Origin: Fulvivirga sp. M361
Lineage (GTDB): Bacteria; Bacteroidota; Bacteroidia; Cytophagales; Cyclobacteriaceae
Length of the DNA: 64,000 nucleotides
Direction of reading: 5' to 3'
Assembly: GCF_007097395.1 (NCBI RefSeq)
Contig: NZ_VKDC01000005.1
Span: 401,813 to 465,812, forward strand
In this document: positions 57,180-61,880 of the stretch, one piece after another
How the letters are laid out: each line of letters opens with the position of its first letter
Numbering within the stretch: the stretch's first letter is position 1
Translations under genes and position numbers: made by a program
Notes under the pieces: model-generated
Database searches by the model: none
What the model was told of the DNA's origin: nothing
What the model saw: only the letters and a program-made list of their open reading frames with translations

Positions 57180-57800
57180 TTAAATCAGCTTCTTAGCCCG
57201 GGCTTTGTCAATAGCATCAAACTTATTGTCCGCATTGAGTTTATCATAAACATGCTCCAAATGCGTTTTAACTGTGGCTGTACTGATAGTAAGTTTGTCT
57301 GCGATTTGCTTATAAGATCTACTCAAACTTAGCTCTTCCAGTACTTCACGCTCCCTGTTGGTAAGGTCTGATTGCAACTCTTTTCGGAAATAGCTAAACA
57401 GATGATGTATACAGGCCTGATCTAATGCCTTTTCACCATTCACTACAACCGAGATATGATCCAGAAGCCCCTTGAAGTTCTTTCTATCTGACAAGAAGCC
57501 ATCCACTCCAACAGACATTGACTTCAAAACACCAAGAGTACCTGAATCGATCACCAGTATCTTCTTTGATGGAAAAGCTATTTTTAGCTTGATCAATTCA
57601 GTTACTTCAATGGTGTGTAAATCGAAAATCAGAACATCAATTCTCTCTAACGCTCTGCTTTTGAAAGAAAGGTCTGATACATTTTCGAAGTGCTCTACTA
57701 ACAAAAACTTACTGGAAGCATCCAACACTCTGGCATAATCACGAAGAATAAAAATGTCCTTAGACATAAGGGCGGTTTGAATATAAAAAGGAGGTCTCAT
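57180..57800 (-). CDS. LuxR-family regulator with degenerate receiver (copy 1)
   Basis: 206 residues. Receiver-like domain about 1-125: the phospho-acceptor position is kept in IDVLIFDLHTIEV, but the conserved Lys near GFLSDRKNF is Asp/Arg and the Thr/Ser after LVID is changed. C-terminal LuxR/GerE helix-turn-helix (LTNREREVLEELSLSRSYKQIADKLTISTATVKTHLEHVY). Lies upstream of susC, same strand. Near-identical plan and strong similarity to the copy at 58148, arising from tandem duplication. Probably controls susC-susD without classical phosphorylation. Confidence 0.93.
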   Translation of the reverse strand: MRPPFYIQTALMSKDIFILRDYARVLDASSKFLLVEHFENVSDLSFKSRALERIDVLIFDLHTIEVTELIKLKIAFPSKKILVIDSGTLGVLKSMSVGVDGFLSDRKNFKGLLDHISVVVNGEKALDQACIHHLFSYFRKELQSDLTNREREVLEELSLSRSYKQIADKLTISTATVKTHLEHVYDKLNADNKFDAIDKARAKKLI

Positions 57801-57942
57801 TGGTATTTTTAAATTAAAAAAACCTTAAAAACCTATTGACCAAGTATCCCTTTATAGCAAATTGGGGGATAGAGACAATTGATATCTAAGTTTTGTTTAA
57901 GGTTAAAATCAAAGTTTTGGCTTCAATCGAAACCAGTTATTT

Positions 57943-57972
57943 CAAACCTAACGGTAAATGAAATCTCAGAAA
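57943..57972 (-). promoter_or_regulatory. Second copy of the TAGGTTTG promoter, upstream of LuxR copy 1
   Basis: TTTC (57969-57972), 18 bases, TAGGTTTG (57943-57950), with the same flanks as the susC promoter. Expected start near 57936 and a leader of about 136 bases to the ATG at 57800. Confidence 0.6.
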
Positions 57973-58147
57973 TCAGCCATTAATGGGGATTATGCCACTT
58001 TCAAGGAGAGTATGAACATCTTATTTATCAATTACTTAATCGAAATGATGGGGCTTATCATAATTAATACCCTATTTTGGGGGATTAAAAAAACACATAT
58101 GCCCCCTCATAATTTCACGTAGCCAGCGTAGCCATAGCCAGCTTTTA

Positions 58148-58765
58148 CTAAATTAACTTCTTAATCCGTGCCTTGTCAATAGCATCAAATTTGTTATCAG
58201 CATCAAGCTTATCATAAACATGTTCCAAATGGGTTTTGACTGTAGCTGTGCTAATGGCAAGTTTATCAGCTATTTGTTTGTAAGACCTGTTTAAACTTAA
58301 CTCTTCTAATACTTCACGTTCTCTGACGGTAAGGTCTGATTGCAATTCTTTTTTGAAGTAGTTAAACAAATATTGTATGCTTATCTGGTCCAGCGTTTTG
58401 TTTCCATTCATCAATGTAGAAATTTGATTCAGGAGTTCTCTAAAATCTCTTCTATCCGATAAGAAGCCGTCTATTCCTACCGCCATTGCCTTCAAAACAT
58501 CAGTGGAACCTGAATTGATCACCAATACTCTTTTTAAGGGAAAAGCTGTTTTTAACTTGATCAATTCAGAGACTTCAATAGTACCTAGATCAAAAATCAA
58601 AACATCAATTCTTTCCAATATCCGCCTTTTAGCAGAAAGGTTTGATACACTTTCAAAATGCTCTACCAACAAAAACTTACTGGAGACATCCAGTACCCTG
58701 GTATAGTCATCGAGAAGAAGAATATCTTTAGATATAAGAGCTACTTGAGTGTAAAAAAAGGTCAT
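58148..58765 (-). CDS. LuxR-family regulator with degenerate receiver (copy 2)
   Basis: 205 residues from the ATG at 58765, which aligns with the start of copy 1; the longer frame begins with TTG at 58813. Receiver-like domain with IDVLIFDLGTIEV and GFLSDRRDF, again lacking the conserved Lys. LuxR helix-turn-helix: LTVREREVLEELSLNRSYKQIADKLAISTATVKTHLEHVY. About 80% of residues match copy 1 by eye. Divergent from the M20 hydrolase gene. Likely regulates the downstream SusC/SusD locus and possibly the M20 gene. Confidence 0.92.
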   Translation of the reverse strand: MTFFYTQVALISKDILLLDDYTRVLDVSSKFLLVEHFESVSNLSAKRRILERIDVLIFDLGTIEVSELIKLKTAFPLKRVLVINSGSTDVLKAMAVGIDGFLSDRRDFRELLNQISTLMNGNKTLDQISIQYLFNYFKKELQSDLTVREREVLEELSLNRSYKQIADKLAISTATVKTHLEHVYDKLDADNKFDAIDKARIKKLI

Positions 58766-59148: not shown

Positions 59149-60600
59149 ATGAACCTAAAACGATTACTTCCGCTATCCTTATTCATTATCGCCAGTGTAT
59201 CTGCCTATGCGCAAAAAAAACCGAAGATCTCGGCAAATAAGAAAGCCGTGCTTGCTTCTATCCGTAGTCAGGAAGATCAAATGGTAAAAATGAGTGATGA
59301 AATATGGGCGCTGGCAGAAACTGCTTTTGAAGAAAAAGGATCGGCTAAAGTGCTGATGGACTACTCCGAATTAAAAGGTATGAAAGTAGAAAAAGGGGTA
59401 GCAGAAATACCCACAGCATTTGTGGCAAGTTTTGGCAGTGGAAAACCTGTTATAGGAATATTGGGAGAGTTCGACGCACTTCCGGGTATTTCGCAAAAGG
59501 CACAACCTACAAAAGAAGCCCTTAAAGCTGGTGCTGCGGGTCATGGATGTGGCCATAACCTTTTTGGCGTAGGAAGTTTGGCTGCCGCAATAGCCATAAA
59601 AGAGCAGATCCAGGCTGGAAAATTAAAAGGAACGGTTAAATTCTATGGAACACCTGCAGAAGAAAAGTTTTTTGGAAAGCTTTTTATGGCACGGGAAGGC
59701 CTCTTTAGCGACCTGGATGTATGCCTGGACTGGCATCCAAGTGCTAAAACAGAAGCCAACGTTCAAAGCTCATTGGCACTTGTCGACTTTATTGTTGAGT
59801 TTTCCGGCCAGGCAGCACATGCTTCTGCTGACCCCTGGAATGGCAGAAGCGCTGTAGATGCACTTGAATTATACACTACAGGAATTAATTATTTAAGAGA
59901 ACATATCAAACCAACCGTGAGAATACATTATCATATCCAACATGGTGGTGACGTAGTAAATGTAGTTCCGGACTATTCCAAAATTTGGGTAAGGGTCAGG
60001 GACACCAAACGTGAGGGTATGACCGAAGTGTGGAAACGTGTTGAAAAAATGGCTGAGGGCGCAGCAATCATGGCAAATGTTGACTACAAGATCTCTTTAG
60101 TATCTGGTTTACACGAGGTACTGGTAAACAGAACCGGTGGTGTAGCATTACAGAAGAACCTGGAATACCTTGGAGACCTGACTTATACGGAAGAAGAGAT
60201 TGCCTTCGCTCACGCTATACAAGAGGCCACCAGCAAACCAAAGGATGGTATAGACGGGAAAATACGCCCATTGGAAACAACAAAAGAACACCCGGGTGGT
60301 GGTTCTACTGATGTGGGAGATGTAAGCTGGCTGGTACCGGAAATACGCTTAGGAGTAACCACAGCACCCATTAATACTCCATGGCACTCCTGGGCAGTAG
60401 TAGCCTGCGGAGGAATGTCAATCGGCCACAAGGGTATGATCTATGCAGCTAAAGCACTGGCAATGACAATGGTGGACCTATATGATGACCCAAGTTTAGT
60501 AAATGAAGTCAAAGCAGAGTTTCTGGAAAAGAAAGGAGACTACCTTTATAAAGCTATTTTACCGGCAGGTCCGGCACCTATTCCTACCGGAACCCATTAA
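59149..60600 (+). CDS. Secreted M20-family amidohydrolase (AbgB/IAA-hydrolase-like)
   Basis: 483 residues with a signal peptide ending SAYAQ. The metal-dependent core carries GEFDALPG, AAGHGCGHNLFGVGSLAAA, the catalytic GTPAEEKFFGK (Glu pair) and LDWHPSAK, with a lid domain from about 205 (LVDFIVEFSGQAAHASADPWNGRSAVDAL) and HPGGGSTDVGDVSW plus TPWHSW near the end. Such enzymes remove acyl groups from amino acids or p-aminobenzoyl-glutamate-like amides. Likely periplasmic. Divergent from LuxR copy 2 and thus perhaps part of the SusCD-linked catabolic set. Substrate unknown. Confidence 0.92.
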   Translation: MNLKRLLPLSLFIIASVSAYAQKKPKISANKKAVLASIRSQEDQMVKMSDEIWALAETAFEEKGSAKVLMDYSELKGMKVEKGVAEIPTAFVASFGSGKPVIGILGEFDALPGISQKAQPTKEALKAGAAGHGCGHNLFGVGSLAAAIAIKEQIQAGKLKGTVKFYGTPAEEKFFGKLFMAREGLFSDLDVCLDWHPSAKTEANVQSSLALVDFIVEFSGQAAHASADPWNGRSAVDALELYTTGINYLREHIKPTVRIHYHIQHGGDVVNVVPDYSKIWVRVRDTKREGMTEVWKRVEKMAEGAAIMANVDYKISLVSGLHEVLVNRTGGVALQKNLEYLGDLTYTEEEIAFAHAIQEATSKPKDGIDGKIRPLETTKEHPGGGSTDVGDVSWLVPEIRLGVTTAPINTPWHSWAVVACGGMSIGHKGMIYAAKALAMTMVDLYDDPSLVNEVKAEFLEKKGDYLYKAILPAGPAPIPTGTH

Positions 60601-60636: not shown

Positions 60637-60948
60637 CTAATTGCGATCCCAGGGTCTGGTGTTCTTGGCTTTGGGGCCTTTTGGTTTATCCATGCTATCA
60701 GAAGCTGACCTTAAGAGAACCATATTTTCGGAATCAGTAGCATAAGATTGTCGATTTTTAGCTTTCGGCCCTTTAGGCTTAACTACTTTCGCACTGGTAT
60801 GAAAATGATAACCGGAACTTTTATCACGCCATGGCTCATAGTTTTTAGCCTTTGGTCCCTTAAGTTTAATCCTTTCCTGGGCACTGGAAAACTGAGGAAA
60901 AGACATAATGAAAATTAGAATTGCGAAAGAAAAGGCATATTTTGACAT
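60637..60948 (-). CDS. Small secreted protein with three KGPKAKN repeats
   Basis: 103 residues from the ATG at 60948; a longer frame to 60996 puts extra residues before a good signal peptide (KYAFSFAILIFIMSFPQFSSAQ, cleavage near residue 24). The mature part contains KGPKAKN three times, at residues 30-36, 59-65 and 90-96 (29 and 31 residues apart), and two of the repeats continue to a PW motif (YEPWRDK and TRPWDRN). Very basic, about 80 residues mature. No Cys, no lipobox, no T9SS tail. I do not recognise a family. It is convergent with the M20 gene 36 bases away and divergent from the phzF gene. Possible roles, all inference: peptide precursor, nucleic-acid- or surface-binding peptide, or signal. 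Confidence 0.8.
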   Translation of the reverse strand: MSKYAFSFAILIFIMSFPQFSSAQERIKLKGPKAKNYEPWRDKSSGYHFHTSAKVVKPKGPKAKNRQSYATDSENMVLLRSASDSMDKPKGPKAKNTRPWDRN

Positions 60949-61085
60949 AAGAATGTAGGTTTGGTTTGCATAATAATAACAGAATACCCGGCACAAACGT
61001 TTGTGCTAAAAAGCTGTTTTTTGTCAGTTTTTTTCCTGCTTAATATGTTTTACCATCCATCCATGACCTATAATTATGTACTTCT

Positions 61086-61880
61086 ATGAGTAAACACAAA
61101 TCACCTTTTTCACTTATTAAAGTATTTTGCTCTGACGAACTTGGCTTCCTCGGAAATAATGCTGCCGTAGTCTCATTGACAAATGAAATCAGTAAGGAAG
61201 AAATGCAGCAGATAGCCTACCAGTTGAACCAACCAGCCACCACATTTTTGTGGCCCGCTACGGATGGATATCATGTAAAATGGTATGCTCCGGACGCTGA
61301 AATCGAACTGTGTGGCCATGGTTCATTAGCAGCCATAGCTTATTTGACAAAGGCAAAGGAAGGGAACGATGTAATACTTCATTATTCGTCGGGAACGATT
61401 ATTGGAAAGAGAAACCCTGACAATACATGTTCTATCGATTTTAAACCTATTACAATCCATGGACGGTCTTCCCCGGAACAAGCTTTGATCAAAGGACTGG
61501 GAGCAAATATCACCGATTACTATGCAACTGATAATAAAAACATTGTACTACTAAAAGATGAAATAGCTGTACAATCACTCCAACCGGATTTTAACCGCCT
61601 AAAAGAATGCGCTGCCTTCGGCTTTATTGTCACCGCAAAGGGAGATAGATCAGACTTTGTAAGTCGCACGTTAGTACCACATGTTCAGCAACTTGAAGAC
61701 CCTGCTACAGGCTCCTCGCATGTGTTACTAACCTCTTTTTGGTCCAAAAGGCTCAATAAAACAAAAATGACGGGCTACCAGCTAAGTAAGCAGGGAGGCG
61801 CGTTTTTATGTGAGCTAATCGAAAATAATATACGCCTTACAGGAAAATATGCCTGCCTGGCAAACGGACACCTAAAATAG
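61086..61880 (+). CDS. PhzF-family isomerase/epimerase-like protein
   Basis: 264 residues of the PhzF/DapF-like fold, two mirrored halves. The catalytic Glu is in DAEIELCGHGSLAAIAYL (about residue 77), and the second-half signature DPATGSSHVLLTSFW is present. Most members outside phenazine producers have no known substrate, and no phenazine genes are in the window. Divergent from the KGPKAKN gene with a 137-base gap. Cytoplasmic, no signal peptide. Confidence 0.92.
   Translation: MSKHKSPFSLIKVFCSDELGFLGNNAAVVSLTNEISKEEMQQIAYQLNQPATTFLWPATDGYHVKWYAPDAEIELCGHGSLAAIAYLTKAKEGNDVILHYSSGTIIGKRNPDNTCSIDFKPITIHGRSSPEQALIKGLGANITDYYATDNKNIVLLKDEIAVQSLQPDFNRLKECAAFGFIVTAKGDRSDFVSRTLVPHVQQLEDPATGSSHVLLTSFWSKRLNKTKMTGYQLSKQGGAFLCELIENNIRLTGKYACLANGHLK

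Follow-up and report, generated by a model that had tools for sequence, protein, structure and literature searches.

The window, that is, the whole 64,000-nucleotide stretch of Fulvivirga sp. M361 DNA under study, contains a small gene, located between an M20 amidohydrolase gene and a phzF gene, which encodes a protein with three copies of the heptapeptide KGPKAKN (Table 1). A first-pass annotation, made from the DNA letters, had described this product as a signal peptide followed by some 80 basic residues in which KGPKAKN is repeated three times at steps of 29-31 residues, with two copies leading into PW. This description is accurate: the copies start at residues 30, 59 and 90 (steps of 29 and 31); PW follows the first and the third copy, not the second; and the mature part after the assumed cut comprises 79 residues, of which 20 are K/R and 8 are D/E. 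The signal peptide itself was judged by eye and with a simple hydrophobicity test. The two neighbours had also been correctly named, as a secreted M20 hydrolase and a PhzF protein.

Table 1. Features of the window around the three-motif gene (positions refer to the window).
Feature	Position	Strand	Remarks
Gene of the 103-amino-acid, three-motif protein	60637..60948	minus	ATG start; real open reading frame
Probable signal peptide, ending in ...SSAQ, then KGPKAKN three times	within 60637..60948	minus	By eye
Motif copy 1, KGPKAKN then YEPW	60841..60861	minus	Derived from residue 30
Motif copy 2, KGPKAKN then RQSY	60754..60774	minus	Derived from residue 59
Motif copy 3, KGPKAKN then TRPW	60661..60681	minus	Derived from residue 90
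Perfect 16-bp palindrome GCACAAACGTTTGTGC, candidate operator	60991..61006		Between the three-motif gene and phzF
M20 amidohydrolase	59149-60600	other than that of the three-motif gene	PF01546 and TIGR01891 above cut-off; start like a signal peptide by eye
PhzF	61086-61880	other than that of the three-motif gene	PF02567 and TIGR00654 above cut-off
Two tandem LuxR-type genes	57180-57800 and 58148-58765	minus	75% identical to each other

Since any 4-mer appeared three times in just 10 of 20,000 shuffles of the protein, the presence of an exact 7-mer in three copies is far beyond chance. At the DNA level, the codons of the three copies differ synonymously and, hence, the repeats are not a recent DNA duplication. 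No second copy of the gene was found in the window genome by DNA, protein and profile searches. A genome-wide enrichment of the GPxAKN DNA pattern was rejected: it has 5 matches in this genome (3 of them inside the gene itself) versus 8 for the reversed control. The mature protein is probably disordered; a structure model based on a two-row alignment was uninformative due to its low confidence (mean pLDDT 54, pTM 0.14).

Homologues are present in related genomes, as the first-pass annotation had proposed to check. Their consensus comprises (i) a signal peptide; and (ii) three copies of L-x-G-P-x-A/Y-K-N-x-K-P-W, approximately 30 residues apart. The window protein conforms to it, with an N-terminal hydrophobic stretch and three GPx[AY]KN about 30 residues apart, and such a stretch was detected with the simple hydrophobicity test in 69 of 70 family members, in agreement with the signal peptide proposed initially. 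A search with the single protein gave matches in 15 of 98 genomes (own genome counted). A profile built from 19 members was then matched in 118 of 390 genomes of the taxonomic family (3 weak), 22 of 291 of the order (2 weak), 8 of 395 of the class (2 weak) and 8 of 395 of the phylum (1 weak), these four sets being overlapping and each of them containing the own genome, which is counted. Weak matches (E 0.002-0.01) correspond to G047, G213, G402, G555, G893, G962 and G1227. Outside the taxonomic family, strong matches were found in four more families: f9 and f19 of the same order, and f26 and f27 of the same class.

The initial remark that the protein fits no nameable family also stands, as no Pfam-A or NCBIfam family reached its curated cut-off for the window protein. 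When 70 members were scanned at E 0.01, three Pfam and four NCBIfam families appeared, each for one or two members and with a best E of 0.0011. The three-motif protein had no relative in viral contigs, no match in plasmids and, among solved structures, three matches at E 0.89-0.98 only; in the open-licence literature of PubMed Central (preprints excluded), no description of the motif, the palindrome discussed below or related phrases was found. The three-motif proteins form a family for which no Pfam or NCBIfam model was found and which is apparently undescribed. A tandem pair of family genes was observed in each of the loci L069, L086 and L111.

Regarding the motif, 86 distinct sequences with at least two strict motifs were collected, of which 74 have three strict motifs, 11 have two and one has four; under a looser pattern, three motifs are present in 6 of those 11. 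The quartiles of the motif spacings are 28-29 and 30-32 residues (ranges: 25-32 and 28-72). In ten close pairs of genes (nine between genomes plus one tandem pair), dN/dS amounted to 0.02 for the GPxxKN core, to 0.13 for the remaining mature part, i.e. the spacers, and to 0.23 for the signal peptide; these values are rough, as synonymous sites approach saturation. Purifying selection thus acts far more strongly on the motif core than on the spacers. The earlier proposal of the motif as the functional unit is supported in that the motif is what is conserved: homologues keep three motifs at a spacing of about 30 residues, while their spacers are variable. Two of the outcomes named beforehand as refuting it, an absence of homologues and a lack of conservation of the motif positions, were therefore not observed.

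These data bear on two other explanations. A spurious or non-functional open reading frame, for which no evidence was found, has a practically negligible probability in view of the purifying selection and of the existence of members in five taxonomic families. A cationic, Trp-containing antimicrobial or surface-coating peptide would agree with the net positive charge of the mature part and with the KPW motifs, but the selection on the exact GPxAKN core is stronger than charge alone would require, and this reading is highly improbable.

The genomic context was studied in 70 loci, window included, which were hand-picked from the profile and protein hits for diversity (the counts do not stem from random sampling, and related genomes enter them repeatedly) and whose genes were called with an ATG-only ORF picker that can miss or misplace short genes. 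They can be divided into: (i) 31 loci in which a histidine kinase gene and a LuxR-type response regulator gene lie upstream of the three-motif gene, all on one strand (context A); (ii) 2 loci in which only the regulator was recognised; (iii) 13 loci with a BBP2 porin gene upstream (context B); and (iv) 24 other loci, the window among them. Loci L123 and L143 ("nofam" in the clustering) carry peptides with weaker motifs and were read in the later count. Context A is spread over 17 genera of five families and, in 29 of its 31 loci, no gene was called between the regulator and the three-motif gene. Its kinases have HAMP, HisKA_3 and HATPase domains (4 of 4 scanned: L053, L079, L124 and L066), and its regulators have Response_reg and GerE domains (3 of 3 scanned). 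A dCache_1 domain appeared below cut-off in the L079 kinase (E 0.047) and in a related kinase of L209 (E 0.00015). The kinase pair was not called upstream of the three-motif gene in 37 of the 70 loci (the 13 of context B and the 24 others), which favours a role beyond that of a ligand of the kinase.

A repeated motif in a probably secreted protein beside a sensor kinase might suggest a multi-copy precursor, from which a protease would free short motif peptides for signalling between cells, perhaps with the adjacent kinase as their sensor; cutting would be possible in such Lys-rich surroundings. Yeast alpha-factor type precursors likewise carry one short motif in several copies behind a signal peptide. 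But copy number and spacing are not known to be so fixed in multi-copy peptide precursors, whereas in the three-motif family both are nearly so and the motif is placed inside longer spacers. Furthermore, neither the 16 largest neighbour clusters nor the few neighbours scanned with Pfam, most neighbours being unannotated, contained a recognisable peptide-modifying enzyme, protease or exporter, and the kinase pair was not called in those 37 upstream regions. In consequence, the precursor reading appears rather unlikely. Among the three roles initially suggested for the motif (processed peptide, binding motif or modified core), the second one fits best, because the number of copies hardly departs from three and no modifying enzyme was recognised in this limited test.

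Upstream of the three-motif genes of context A, a palindrome close to ATCCGTATAWATACGGAT is present in 24 of 31 regulator-peptide gaps. These gaps were defined by a regulator immediately upstream so that, compared with the 31 context-A loci, L060 and L083 are left out and L114 and L142 are included. With up to three mismatches, ATCCGTAWWWWTACGGAT matched 24 of the 31 gaps versus 0.5% of 1550 shuffles, a contrast that is descriptive since the consensus derives from the very gaps that were matched and the genomes are related. The palindrome is missing from 7 of the 31 context-A gaps; as to the remaining upstream regions, none of 12 in context B and 5 of 30 in the other loci contain it. It is unlikely to be a terminator: by eye, no T-run was seen in the downstream bases read for the 31 gaps.

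At genome scale, TCCGTATWWATACGGA has 15 sites in 13 of 196 genomes, while its reversed control has one (G058). Judging by coordinates, 10 of these 15 sites are at a three-motif locus and 5 are not at a locus of the family; one of the latter precedes the gene of a different small repeat protein (G144, see below), and for four (one in G053, two in G125 and the second one in G119) no repeat protein was recognised downstream. A search for CCGTATNNATACGG in eight chosen genomes revealed 6 sites, distributed over 5 of them, with 3 at the three-motif locus and 3 elsewhere (control: one site, in G258); among these eight, the window genome (G000) and the context-A genomes G006 and G258 contain no exact match. 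In L062, a second palindrome site (L062:12619) lies about 5.5 kb from the first one and 73 bases from a gene of the same cluster as L053:8289, which is a sodium/hydrogen exchanger by Pfam.

In context B, the upstream neighbours of the three-motif gene are an AmtB-BBP2 gene pair, whose identities were confirmed by Pfam in L057 (PF00909 and PF07642). According to the BLAST clusters, 17 of the 70 loci contain an AmtB-type gene: the 13 of context B plus, in other layouts, two of context A and two others. The three-motif protein belongs to neither of these two protein families. Moreover, a terminator-like hairpin followed by T was found between the porin gene and the three-motif gene in 8 of 13 context-B gaps versus 4 of 260 shuffles and, therefore, both genes need not share a transcript. 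The association with AmtB is no more than suggestive of a link between the three-motif protein and nitrogen.

The window copy is not in context A, as it is flanked by the phzF and M20 genes on the opposite strand. No relative of the window M20 gene was found in the 69 other loci, and a PhzF-type gene is near the three-motif gene in 3 of the 70 (window, L051 and L066); the widely recurring neighbours are the kinase-regulator pair or the AmtB/porin pair. The tandem LuxR-type genes of the window (57180-58765) were rejected as module regulators on account of their identity to these of only about 30%, and no module-type kinase was called beside them. The best match of the window genome to the regulator profile (222.6 bits) scores below the three module genomes found, described below, and is followed by an unrelated gene. 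With respect to palindromes, the context-A type is not among the best three inverted repeats in the 160 bases upstream of the window gene. The palindrome that lies there, GCACAAACGTTTGTGC, has its sole exact match in the window genome at this site, and it may resemble LacI-type operators; CAAACGT or its reverse complement occurs at -54 to -68 of 7 of 71 family genes, six from this genus and one from another. Three genomes of the same genus (G004, G006 and G007) each carry a context-A copy plus another copy, which makes descent of the window copy from a paralogue possible.

The position downstream of the regulator is also occupied by other repeat proteins. A profile of the regulator was searched in 80 genomes, all of which, except the own one, were selected because the three-motif family had not been found in them. 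It matched in 73, and 30 loci were examined. In three of them (G074, G057 and G063, the three best-scoring genomes), the regulator of a related kinase-regulator pair, with Response_reg and GerE domains, is followed by a small protein in which short SKP- or NYKH-type repeats and a signal peptide were recognised by eye. The pattern CCGTA....TACGG was found downstream of the regulator in none of the 30 loci, these three included. The G144 protein mentioned above has 124 amino acids, is secreted by eye and contains three SKGV repeats, with the palindrome upstream. When searched in 98 genomes, it matched in four, two of them weakly (G066 and G094); its SKG-type relatives are (i) in G029, a protein with 60% identity and the palindrome upstream; and (ii) in G057, a protein with 31% identity, downstream of the kinase-regulator pair. 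Within 14 kb around the palindrome and the SKG-type gene, no kinase pair was found in G144 and G029, which belong to the same genus. In both genomes, a PF00909 ammonium transporter gene lies about 5 kb from the SKG-type gene and, in G029, it is followed by a BBP2 porin gene. Separately, a 67-aa ORF with a KGG-containing leader, resembling a RiPP precursor, was observed in L190 some 223 bases downstream of the regulator.

The explanation that best accommodates these observations, to which we assign a probability of about 50%, is that of a secreted, probably disordered, three-motif binding protein which, in many relatives, would be the output of the neighbouring two-component system. According to this proposal, the 103-aa protein would be exported by the Sec pathway, and its three LKGPxAKNxKPW copies would act as linear binding motifs for an envelope-located or extracellular partner. 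In many relatives, the sensor kinase would activate the LuxR-type regulator which, in turn, would act at the palindrome just upstream of the three-motif gene. The window copy, with its different upstream palindrome, would be outside this arrangement due to either loss of the context or descent from a paralogue. While the three motifs, the selection on them, the gene order and the palindrome are read directly from the genomes, we infer export, disorder, binding, the contact between regulator and palindrome, the direction of the regulation and the existence of a partner.

Among the closest known systems are CpxP and Spy, small periplasmic targets of envelope two-component systems. From its sequence context, the three-motif protein would resemble them in being small, exported, encoded next to a two-component system and probably controlled by it; nevertheless, the members scanned lack a CpxP/Spy match in Pfam or NCBIfam, and the family has a repeated linear motif and a LuxR-type regulator. 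CpxP binds the sensor domain of its kinase in the periplasm and tunes it. By analogy, the three-motif protein could be a feedback partner that binds and tunes the periplasmic sensor domain of the adjacent kinase, as might be expected from its location next to kinase and regulator in 31 of 70 loci and from the other repeat proteins found in the same slot in three other genomes. But that pair is missing as a neighbour in 37 loci, window included, and in the few kinases inspected by eye the sensor part looks conserved while the peptides differ, so feedback is an unlikely role.

Returning to the proposed binding protein, its interest lies in its membership of a conserved, apparently undescribed family that, in many relatives, comes with a sensor, a regulator and a candidate operator. 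The family is a likely output of a hitherto unstudied signalling system, and its function is directly testable since the switch and the output are side by side. A broader and distinctly speculative reading of the same gene neighbourhoods is that Bacteroidota might possess a class of two-component systems with interchangeable secreted repeat proteins as outputs (GPxAKN-KPW, SKG/SKP and NYKH). As AmtB is a trimer, the three motifs might make this type a trivalent ligand of a trimeric envelope protein, for instance AmtB or the BBP2 porin that recur beside it. If the output slot does take different repeat proteins, this would represent a general signalling design in the phylum.

Finally, in the family members of L076, L077 and L078 (lower gene coordinates 6571, 6810 and 6697, respectively), the C-terminus consists of a short hydrophobic stretch, IAPVLILLILGL-like, that might serve as a membrane anchor.
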